From NCBI RefSeq assembly GCF_011769525.1, contig NZ_CP050440.1:310001-374000 (forward strand): 64,000 nucleotides of DNA. Direction: 5' to 3'. Source of the stretch: Tolypothrix sp. PCC 7910 (GTDB lineage Bacteria > Cyanobacteriota > Cyanobacteriia > Cyanobacteriales > Nostocaceae). The translations under genes were made by a program, and so were the position numbers. Of the stretch, positions 10,180 through 13,017 are shown one piece after another (within the stretch, counting starts at the first letter, position 1; each line of letters opens with the position of its first letter). The notes beneath the pieces are model-generated. The model made no database searches. It was given only the letters and a program-made list of their open reading frames with translations, and was not told where the DNA came from.

Positions 10180-10404
10180 GCATATTTGTGCCGAATTATC
10201 GGTAAAAAGCGCGATCGCCTTTTACAAATAACAAAGGTTTTATTTAGTAAATTCCTTAACTGTAGAGTCAGGCAATCTATTTTTTCAGCAATAATTTAGG
10301 TTAGCTATATATTTGATTATCTATCTTTAAGAAAACGTTGCAATCAATGAGTGAAAACATCTAAGTGGGTAAAGTTTATTTTCAGTATAATTAATCAGAT
10401 TTAA
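10180..10404. other. Intergenic region before the RNA-like repeat array
   Basis: No gene. It carries a HIP1-like site just after the stop codon. From about 10320 it resembles the upstream flanks of repeat units B and C (a GTAAAGTTT..TTTTC segment near 10370), so it is probably the promoter-side part of the first repeat unit. Confidence 0.4.
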
Positions 10405-10711
10405 AGCGTGCTACTTTAAATACATGAAGCTAATAAAGCTTCCCTGGCAGATACAACAGCCAAGTTGATAAAGTCCAAGTTAGTTAAGAGGTAAAAAAGC
10501 TGTTAATTCGTCTGTCTCGTCAGCTAACAACAACACCCAACTCGAAAGCTAATATTTCCTCAATATAGTAAAGAGGGGGATGATACAACTAAATTATTAT
10601 TACATAGCGAGTATGTAGATAATTTTTGTAGCCCCGTTCGTAAAGCCAAAGCAAGAGGAAATTACTAAGCAAGTCGCAGCTTGGGTGTTGTTGTTTTTAG
10701 AAGTTTTTGCC
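10405..10711 (+). ncRNA. Candidate structured RNA unit A (first of three tandem copies)
   Basis: The divergent first copy of a roughly 308-base unit. It keeps the GAAGCT/AGCTTC hairpin (about 10427-10443), the AACAACAACACCCAA stem with its complement TTGGGTGTTGTTGTT (about 10525-10695), the ATTTCCTC/GAGGAAAT, GGGG/CCCC and TTACATA/TATGTA pairings, and an outer stem GGTAAAAA with TTTTTGCC (10704-10711). Relative to copies B and C the last stem changes TTTTTACC to TTTTTGCC, which keeps pairing through a G-U. Several indels destroy the short open frame found in B and C. Strand is inferred from the outer hairpin arrangement and is not certain. Confidence 0.55.
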
Positions 10712-10890
10712 AAAATTTCATATAAGTTCGCTAGATAAGCTAGGGTCATAACAATAGTTATGCCCTTAAAATCATCTAAACATTATGCAGTGATAATCTG
10801 CTGTATTTATTAAAAAGAATTGTTGCCATTTATAAATGAAAATATTTTAAAAAGTAAAGTTTGGTTTCATCCTGAATCTATCAGAATTGA

Positions 10891-11198
10891 AGCGTGTTAT
10901 TTTAAAAATATGAAGCTAATCAAGCTTCACTCGGCGAACAAAACAGCCAAGTTGACCAAGTCCAGTTAGTTAAGAGGTAAAAAACGCTGTTAGATAGTCT
11001 GTATCGCCAACTAACAACAACACCCAACTCGAAAGCTGATATTTCCTCAATGTGGTAAAGAGGGGGATATTACAACTAAATTGTTATTACATAGCGAGTA
11101 TGTAAATCATGGTTGTAGCCCCATTTGTAGAGATAAACGAGAGGAAATAACTAAGCAAGTCGTAGCTTGGGTGTTGTTGTTTTTAGGAGCTTTTTACC
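10891..11198 (+). ncRNA. Candidate structured RNA unit B (second tandem copy)
   Basis: Nearly identical to unit C from the GAAGCT hairpin to about 11218, including the whole nested stem set. The 5' flank has the same GTAAAGTTT..TTTC segment about 40 bases before the unit, a possible shared promoter element. The unit-to-unit period is 486 bases from A and 485 to C. High identity between B and C but not A suggests recent duplication or gene conversion. Confidence 0.55.
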
Positions 11199-11375
11199 AG
11201 AATTAAATACAATTTCTATAGATAGAGTAGGGGAATAACAATGTTATGCCTTGAAAATTATCTGAACTTCACGCATTTACAATCATTGTATTTAGCAAAA
11301 AGAATTATTGCCATTTATAAAGAGCAATATTCTTAAAAGTAAAGTTTAGTTTCAAAGTGAAGCTATTAGAATTAA

Positions 11376-11683
11376 AGCGTGGTACTTTAAAAACATGAAG
11401 CTAATCAAGCTTCACTCGGCGAACAAAACAGCCAAGTTGACCAAGTCCAGTTAGTTAAGAGGTAAAAAACGCTGTTAGATAGTCTGTATCGCCAACTAAC
11501 AACAACACCCAACTCGAAAGCTGACATTTCCTCAATGTGGTAAAGAGGGGGATATTACAACTAAATTGTTATTACATAGCGAGTATGTAAATCATGGTTG
11601 TAGCCCCATTTGTAAAGATAAGCAAGAGGAAATAACTAAGCAAGTCGTAGCTTGGGTGTTGTTGTTTTTAGGAGCTTTTTACC
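11376..11683 (+). ncRNA. Candidate structured RNA unit C (third tandem copy)
   Basis: The clearest copy. Pairings read directly: GAAGCT 11397-11402 with AGCTTC 11408-11413; GGTAAAAA 11461-11468 with TTTTTACC 11676-11683, extended by GCT with AGC; AACAACAACACCCAA 11498-11512 with its perfect complement 11652-11666; ATTTCCTC 11526-11533 with GAGGAAAT 11626-11633; GGGG 11547-11550 with CCCC 11604-11607; TACAAC 11556-11561 with GTTGTA 11597-11602; TTACATA 11572-11578 with TATGTAA 11584-11590 around a GCGAG loop. All stems after the first nest into a single rod of about 223 bases, an architecture like 6S-type RNAs or a retron msd, though no reverse transcriptase is nearby. No RNA family is recognised. 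Homology with B stops at about 11710. Confidence 0.6.
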
Positions 11684-11767
11684 AGAATTAAATACAATTT
11701 CTATAGATAGCTATTTCTAGAGCATCTCTCTTTCCAGTCAACAGTCATCCATCAACAGTCAACACTA

Positions 11768-12914
11768 GACACGTCCGGAATATGAATTGGGTACAAAAAA
11801 ATGGTAGAAAGTAAAATTGACCCTCTACCAAAATTTAATTAAATGATTAGTATATTTGATTATATACAAAAGTATCCACGAAGAGCAAAGCAACTTTTGG
11901 GGATTAGTTATGACCAATTTACTGACCTTGTAAACTATGCTAAAAACAGTCATGAAGAAGAACAACTCAAATTGGAACAGAAGAAAGTTAGAATACATCG
12001 TCGTGGAGGTGGACGCAAAGAATTATTATCCATCCCAGAACAAGTATGTTTGTGCTTGTTTTATCTGAGACAAATACCCACATTTGAAGTTTTAGGAATA
12101 ATGTTTGGTATATCAAAAACTTTATCTAATGATACTTTTCATTACTGGAGAAAAATATTACGTAAGATTCTCCCTTCTAGTTTAATAGAGCAAGTAGAAA
12201 ATAAAGAAGGAGATTTGCTCATTATACAAGAAATATTAACGAATTTTAAGTTGCTAGTTGATAGCGTAGAACAGCCTATAGATAGACCATCTGACAACGA
12301 AGAACAGAAAAAGTTCTTTTCGGGAAAGAAAAAACAGCATACTATAAAAAACCAGATAGTTTCCTTGCCAGAGGGAAAAGATATTATTGATGTTACAGTA
12401 GGCTCTCCAGGGCCAACAGCAGACATAAAATTATTTAGAGAGCAACAAACAAAATTTGATGAAAAACAAGAATTTACGGGAGATAAAGCGTATCAAGGTG
12501 GGAATAATATTACTACCCCTCATAAGAAGAAAAGAAAACAACAATTAAATGAACAACAAAAAGAAGAAAATAAAGCTCTATCAAGTAAGCGTATATTTGT
12601 TGAGCATTTAATACGTATTGTAAAAATTTTCCAAGTGGCATCACAAAGATTTAGATTAAATGCTGATGTTTATAATGAAATAGTTTTGTTAGTTTGTGGT
12701 CTAGTAAGACTGCGAATTGGCACTTTCGTATTACCGAATAGCGCCATAAATTAGTATCAATTAAAAATTGTGTTTGCGTTAGGCAAGATTATGTATTTTT
12801 CTGCTCTAAACTATCAGTAACTATATCAAACACTTATTGTTCCATTGCAACAGAATCTGCAAGGACTGGTCTCAAAGCCTTGTAAATATAGGCTTGCGAG
12901 TTTTCGGACGGGTC
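11768..12914 (+). mobile_element. IS5-type insertion sequence (DDE_Tnp_4 group), 1147 bp, TA target duplication
   Basis: Ends are imperfect inverted repeats GACACGTCCGGAA (from 11768) and the complement of GACCCGTCCGAAA (ending 12914), flanked on both sides by TA (11766-11767 and 12915-12916). One transposase gene of the IS427/ISL2-like DDE_Tnp_4 type lies between. A TA or TNA target duplication is usual for these IS5 subgroups. The element sits immediately 3' of the third RNA-like unit, whose downstream flank is lost just before it. Confidence 0.85.
11843..12754 (+). CDS. IS5-family transposase (DDE_Tnp_4)
   Basis: A 303-residue transposase with an N-terminal helix-turn-helix region (VCLCLFYLRQIPTFEVLGIMFGISKTLSND, about residues 68-97) and an RNase H-like catalytic domain. 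The likely DDE triad is D140 (LLVDSVEQP), D214 (TGDKAYQG) and E254 (IFVEHLIRIVK). The reading frame is intact and 303 residues is a normal length, so the element may be active. A lysine/glutamine-rich patch (HKKKRKQQLNEQQKEE) precedes the glutamate. The gene starts 75 bases inside the left end. AT-rich codon use relative to neighbours agrees with acquisition from elsewhere. Confidence 0.9.
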   Translation: MISIFDYIQKYPRRAKQLLGISYDQFTDLVNYAKNSHEEEQLKLEQKKVRIHRRGGGRKELLSIPEQVCLCLFYLRQIPTFEVLGIMFGISKTLSNDTFHYWRKILRKILPSSLIEQVENKEGDLLIIQEILTNFKLLVDSVEQPIDRPSDNEEQKKFFSGKKKQHTIKNQIVSLPEGKDIIDVTVGSPGPTADIKLFREQQTKFDEKQEFTGDKAYQGGNNITTPHKKKRKQQLNEQQKEENKALSSKRIFVEHLIRIVKIFQVASQRFRLNADVYNEIVLLVCGLVRLRIGTFVLPNSAIN

Positions 12915-13017
12915 TACTATACAAAGTTAAAGTTTTGCGATCGCACTACATAATCTCAACTCATGCCCAATTTATTATGCAACCATCTATAATGGCACTC
13001 CTTTAAATAACTGGCTT

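Follow-up and report, generated by a model that had tools for sequence, protein, structure and literature searches.

A 64,000-nucleotide (nt) stretch of the Tolypothrix sp. PCC 7910 genome (NZ_CP050440.1, positions 310,001 to 374,000; here called the window, with its position 1 at C1:310001 in genome coordinates) carries three tandem direct-repeat units spaced 486 and 485 bases apart. Each unit contains one intact gene of about 273 nt on the forward (+) strand, preceded by its own promoter-like block, for a structured RNA that matches no family in the Rfam library. The three genes belong to a cyanobacterial family whose members, as judged from their sequences, appear to be about 245-290 nt in size, and whose range extends well beyond what the window alone would indicate. 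It is nearly certain that this is a real and ancient RNA family. We consider that its members are probably free-standing, independently transcribed structured non-coding RNAs (ncRNAs) that act in trans, and whose dose is raised by tandem duplication.

Three tandem copies of one RNA gene

An earlier note on this DNA, made without database searches, had proposed three tandem units of an unrecognised structured RNA with an insertion sequence (IS) directly after the third. Direct-repeat families at exactly the two distances given above bear out the spacing, and copies B and A are 96% and 85% identical, respectively, to copy C. The description of the RNA as unrecognised also stands, in that Rfam 15 yields no match at the gathering threshold across the window and across 14 loci that carry homologues, two of which are overlapping stretches of one genome. 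A covariance search of the same genome recovered five full-length copies, namely the three in the window plus C1:6082251 and C1:2421410 (minus strand), and five further matches at E < 0.001 are weak and lie on the opposite strand of the same five places. The flank of the array is syntenic in the four other species of the genus that were fetched, with three copies in two of them and two copies in the other two. As proposed, an IS adjoins the array: a DDE_Tnp_4 transposase gene begins 175 bases past copy C, and positions 11763-13006 find no alignment in two sister species, both of which also have three RNA copies.

Conserved structure and compensatory changes

The + strand of copy C folds with an energy of -88.6 kcal/mol, compared with -65.5 +/- 4.4 kcal/mol for 100 shuffled sequences (z -5.2), which places its structure beyond chance. 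The minus strand also reaches z -4.4, and therefore fold energy alone does not decide the strand. We favour the + strand because of the promoter-like block and because the conserved pairs contain 189 G-U cells as opposed to 94 A-C cells.

A search with nhmmer collected 76 distinct homologues. The alignment made from them (A1) covers 58 and excludes 18 members of the window's own genus, including copy B. Unguided folding of these 58 with RNAalifold recovered a hairpin (P1), the inner half of a long-range stem (P2), a rod (P3) and a further helix (P4), with double changes in 14 of 28 pairs. When the outer part of P2 and helices P5 and P6 were added to this unguided fold, the resulting named structure of 50 pairs had 90.0% of its cells paired, versus 36-47% when slid, and held 21 doubly changed pairs versus 8.8 in shuffles. 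On each of five measures, all 500 shuffles fell short of the value for the real alignment. A model-fitted set of 59 matches in 48 chosen loci has double changes in 41 of the 50 pairs, a count raised artificially by three matches left in the set, two of them on the opposite strand and one truncated, and some of the chosen places overlap with those of alignment A1. A conserved fold with compensatory changes is what would be expected of a structured, standalone small RNA (sRNA).

The family architecture comprises P1 as a 5' hairpin, the long-range stem P2 and a rod formed by P3-P4-P5/P6, with a large internal loop in the rod between P3 and P4. Strongly conserved unpaired segments are found inside P2 (AAGAGGUAAAAACGC) and after it (UCUC(GUC)). 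The perfect 15-bp stem that the earlier note drew in copy C is present and forms the two arms of P3, and the same 15-mers pair perfectly in copy A (10526-10540/10681-10695) and copy B (11013-11027/11167-11181). That note had nested six stems beyond the first hairpin into a single rod; the P3 rod is real, but in the family P1 and long-range P2 are separate from it. An outer GGUAAAAA/UUUUUACC stem, in which a change from A-U to G-U was thought to keep pairing, did not hold up, as a candidate 3' partner exists in six of 58 homologues under a loose pattern; the outer part that is conserved is the P2 stem. Selection on structure rather than on a peptide, which had also been suggested, agrees with the compensatory changes in the stems and with the reading frames of the 58 homologues, none of which holds a long conserved one (longest ATG frame: median 10 codons, maximum 44).

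Promoter-like block and 3' end

Both an upstream motif and an extended -10-like block precede all three window copies. In 106 of 153 family members, a GTAAAG-type motif begins at -58 to -56 relative to the GAAGC of P1; 23 members have it at other positions, and in the remaining 24 none was seen. Judged from sequence, these elements constitute a predicted promoter of the RNA's own at a fixed distance from P1.

At the other end of the gene, 72% of the 87 copies that lie away from FAM0, a frequent downstream gene described below, have at least four T residues in a row after P3, versus 36% of 75 FAM0-adjacent copies; adjacency was taken as <700 nt, and eight of 170 copies near the ends of their stretches were left out. 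A local terminator-like hairpin, CTAAGC/GCTTGG, which a scanner reported at all three 3' ends, was considered and rejected in view of its pairing in 30-51 of the 58 homologues per position, weaker than P3. On the minus strand, P1 and the A-rich stretch that precedes it resemble a terminator (10426-10442, 10910-10930 and 11395-11415), and the 5' end of the RNA may also terminate transcripts arriving from the right.

Distribution among cyanobacteria

A covariance-model search of cyanobacterial genomes, which had been suggested as a check, found homologues in which the stems are conserved. The model (R1, 270 positions) matches 189 of the 217 genomes searched from the window's family; in its class it matches 172 of 388 genomes, in 91 of 160 genera. 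The class genomes were drawn evenly, the search filters lose weak matches, and the match count of a genome may contain hits on the opposite strand and should not be read as a copy number. With copy C as the blastn query, matches were found in 39 of 58 genomes, its own counted. Named genomes were also scanned with a pattern, which yielded at least 113 stretches, and all 80 of those listed with a title are cyanobacterial. The records among the matches listed include Acaryochloris, Leptolyngbya, Spirulina, Planktothricoides, Gloeocapsopsis, Nostoc and Anabaena. Tandem arrays are uncommon, as 107 of the 113 loci listed hold one copy; the other six, one of them from the window's genus, have two or three. 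Copies also reside on three Nostoc plasmid records. A viral origin was set aside, since blastn matched no phage record and the one exact pattern searched matched no viral contig.

Table 1. Coordinates of the RNA copies, their structural and promoter-like elements, and associated genes. Positions are those of the window unless another locus is named.
Feature	Position	Strand	Evidence or remark
RNA copy A (model R1 positions 1-270)	10425..10697	+	G000:C1:320425-320697, 247.8 bits, E 9.1e-77
RNA copy B	10911..11183	+	G000:C1:320911-321183, 222.7 bits
RNA copy C	11396..11668	+	G000:C1:321396-321668, 220.9 bits
P1, 5' hairpin of copy C (GAAGC/GCTTC)	11397..11413	+	99.0% of cells paired, 58 homologues
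P3 rod, 5' arm, copy C	11498..11512	+	helix 5: 95.6% of cells paired; double changes in 6/13 pairs
P3 rod, 3' arm, copy C, then T run (3' end)	11652..11666	+	
Upstream element of copy A (family form GTAAAGTTTAGTTGCA)	10369..10384	+	57 nt before GAAGC
Upstream element of copy B	10854..10869	+	58 nt before GAAGC
Upstream element of copy C	11339..11354	+	58 nt before GAAGC
Extended -10-like TGnTACTTT of copy A	10409..10417	+	sequence; tg.taa block conserved in 153 members
Extended -10-like block of copy B	10895..10903	+	sequence, family conservation
Extended -10-like block of copy C	11380..11388	+	sequence, family conservation
IS transposase gene (HTH_Tnp_4 + DDE_Tnp_4), outside the RNA	11843..12754	+	Pfam PF13359, E 1.5e-33
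FAM0, example	L222 5823-6593		

Comparison with known RNAs

The rod shape had earlier been likened to 6S RNA and to a retron. Like 6S RNA (RF00013, ssaA), the RNA described here is a cyanobacterial, rod-like RNA that stands alone with a gene of its own. Unlike 6S RNA, which has a single locus, it is about 270 nt with P1 and P2 domains and occurs in five copies in the genome, and we know of no counterpart in 6S RNA to its P1/P2 5' domain. No Rfam match, RF00013 included, was found up to E 1 in the 1651-base region 10200-11850, and the genuine 6S RNA lies elsewhere, at C1:5736130; identity with 6S RNA was rejected on these grounds. Canonical 6S RNA was found once, at a place other than that of this RNA, in each of four genomes tested. 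The retron likeness gained no support, in that no recurrent reverse transcriptase was recognised among the RNA's neighbours in clusters of 66 and 113 loci, with no model of that enzyme run.

Other points of comparison come from published reports. NsiR1 is an sRNA of Nostoc that derives from tandem direct repeats; it is heterocyst-specific, and its array comprises 12 short repeats upstream of hetF (PMC4734099, PMC3610870). The RNA described here is likewise a cyanobacterial RNA encoded in tandem direct repeats, but its unit is about 486 bases rather than short, and records named Leptolyngbya, Acaryochloris and Spirulina contain it too. Similar in size are two abundant, Northern-verified sRNAs of Nostoc PCC 7120, 2462444f (258 nt) and 268249f (340 nt), which were found in 24 and 18, respectively, of 27 heterocystous genomes and are described as exclusive to heterocystous strains, in a report whose sRNA pipeline demands a predicted Rho-independent terminator (PMC4734099). 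Our RNA may correspond to one of these two, or to an unnamed entry in the published Nostoc start-site tables. The glnA, Downstream-peptide, psaA and PhotoRC-I motifs are structured RNA candidates of cyanobacteria (PMC2864571). Our RNA is like them in being a conserved structured RNA with one copy upstream of a gene, but differs in having no Rfam match, in its standalone or tandem copies and in its presence without the gene. No earlier description of the RNA was found in the portions of the literature searched, which include PMC4734099, PMC3610870, PMC2864571 and PMC6202907 and cover few subscription papers. Sequence strings of the RNA, when sought in the texts of papers, matched only papers judged unrelated from their titles and the starts of their abstracts.

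The FAM0 gene

FAM0 is an uncharacterised 256-amino-acid protein (60-79% identity to the first of 16 aligned members) that is present in 224 of the 388 class genomes. Its gene lies downstream of the RNA, on the same strand and within 1.5 kb, in 60 of the 113 pattern-scan loci listed. Both places are known for 98 genomes among the first 150 matches listed for each of the RNA and FAM0; in 67 of these FAM0 is downstream of the RNA on the same strand, with gaps of just 19-31 nt in 25 and of 1.3-1.5 kb in two, and in 31, of which 21 are from one genus, the RNA and FAM0 are apart. With FAM0 scored at E 1e-30 or better, the 388 class genomes divide into 135 with both, 37 with the RNA only, 89 with FAM0 only and 127 with neither, which corresponds to an odds ratio of 5.2 that takes no account of phylogeny.

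Nineteen of the 37 genomes with the RNA only were fetched, and 16 of these show more than 1 kb past the RNA without FAM0. Two of the fetched stretches are too short (L263 and L264, which end 450 and 62 bases past the RNA) and one is cut by a contig end, at which FAM0 starts (L258); at least one of the 37 (G266) reflects an assembly edge. In three genomes (L248-L250), the RNA's next neighbour is the gene found past FAM0 at other loci. The window's own genome has a single FAM0 at C1:173581, with no RNA match within the surrounding 9 kb, and each of eight genomes searched of the window's genus has one FAM0. In many Nostocales, FAM0 carries its own conserved upstream block and is separated from the RNA by unrelated filler of varying length.

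Among the FAM0 proteins, PF05014 (nucleoside deoxyribosyltransferase-like) matches three of 16 members weakly (best E 0.0054, below its cut-off), and PF03574 (E 0.0015) and PF10137 (E 0.13) match one member each, also weakly. The AlphaFold model has a mean predicted local distance difference test (pLDDT) score of 72, no PDB fold matches FAM0 at E 0.001 or better, and no RNA-binding domain was seen among the Pfam matches of the 16 members. Among 72 loci, the 100 nt before FAM0 contain a GT[AG]N8TAC box, which has the form of an NtcA site, in 32, versus six of 72 in-gene controls. At G020:C1:3255599-3256309, FAM0 contains in-frame stops and is an apparent pseudogene.

Proposed function and alternative explanations

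We infer transcription, termination at P3, action in trans and the effect on dosage. Each RNA gene would be transcribed from its own promoter-like block and would end at P3 and the U residues that follow. The rod would supply both stability and the 3' end, P2 would enclose the conserved unpaired segment noted above, and the RNA would act in trans, with mRNAs or a protein as its target, by way of its conserved unpaired stretches. The three window copies would represent a tandem amplification in the window's lineage that leads to a higher RNA dose. It is quite unlikely, in our estimate, that the family is an old RNA of the housekeeping type that binds the ribosome or RNA polymerase via its conserved unpaired segments, a Shine-Dalgarno-like AAGAGGU and the bubble segments, with its dose tuned by repeated tandem duplication.

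Several observations weigh against a free-standing, trans-acting RNA. In 65 of the 98 listed genomes, FAM0 follows an RNA copy on the same strand after a gap of 19-509 nt, which is a leader-like arrangement, and the T run is short and often missing in the FAM0-adjacent copies. Helices P5 and P6 are weaker than the others, being paired in 75% and 66% of cells. No target or partner of the RNA was found in this analysis. Finally, the pair counts, the T-run comparison and the neighbour strand counts ignore relatedness, and in the strand counts tandem copies and sister-species copies are each counted separately.

The chief rival, although we regard it as unlikely, holds that the RNA is a cis-regulatory leader of FAM0, akin to an attenuator or a riboswitch, and that the standalone copies either arose as secondary duplicates or are by-products that act in trans. 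The frequent position of FAM0 downstream, the 25 short gaps, the co-occurrence of the two genes (again without account of phylogeny) and the weaker T run of the adjacent copies speak for this explanation, and in lineages with gaps of 19-31 nt the adjacent copy may have a leader role. However, a leader should lie upstream of FAM0 and be lost with it, and the RNA does not follow this pattern: it is not adjacent to FAM0 in the 31 genomes noted above, it occurs without FAM0, including where the gene from beyond FAM0 is its next neighbour, and many Nostocales FAM0 genes have their own upstream block with variable, unrelated sequence before it. Moreover, for 35 of the 87 copies away from FAM0, the nearest following ATG frame with 100 codons or more runs on the opposite strand, and thus a leader role is unlikely at those copies. 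We favour an independent, trans-acting RNA because the leader explanation fails on the presence of the RNA without FAM0, on arrays that lie away from FAM0 and on convergent neighbours.

An RNA-protein partnership, in which the FAM0 protein is bound by the RNA and titrated by its additional copies, would also suit the frequent adjacency and co-occurrence, as well as the single FAM0 in each of the eight genomes of the genus. It is nevertheless improbable given the 37 genomes with the RNA alone (the assembly edge included), the 89 with FAM0 alone, and a protein with sub-threshold PF05014 matches and neither a PDB match nor an RNA-binding domain in the searches described above. The rod with its large P3-P4 internal loop and the stand-alone gene would be in keeping with a second 6S-like RNA that binds RNA polymerase, but the failure to match RF00013, the canonical 6S RNA located elsewhere and the additional 5' domain make this very improbable. 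Several dispersed copies in the same genome, the three plasmid records and the adjoining IS would be expected of a mobile or retroelement-derived repeat, such as a miniature inverted-repeat transposable element, a retron or a relative of the diversity-generating retroelements. This origin is hardly credible, however, because position and orientation recur across distant lineages, the stems exhibit compensatory changes, the genome holds only five copies, and the searches of phage records, viral contigs and neighbouring genes described above offered no match and no recognised reverse transcriptase.

Other neighbouring genes

A small heat-shock protein (Hsp20) gene is located about 185-453 nt downstream of an RNA copy, on the same strand, in loci L231, L233, L156 (Nodularia) and L204; L231 and L233 are two plasmids of one Nostoc commune strain. 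In an Anabaena-type relative (L222 1099-4088), the RNA stands beside genes that, from their sequences, we take to be a flavodoxin gene and two CP43/IsiA-like genes. An ncRNA start site beside isiA/psbC-like genes is reported for Nodularia (PMC3610870). We do not claim a link, as the RNA is beside such a cluster in L222 and not in L230.

Implications

Widely conserved, highly structured RNAs of about 270 nt are few, and they usually are central in role. An RNA that resides in many cyanobacterial genera and has no Rfam entry represents a gene that is open to direct testing, and Nostoc and Anabaena are among the records in which it is present. Its link to FAM0 likewise offers another way to approach an uncharacterised protein that is strongly conserved.
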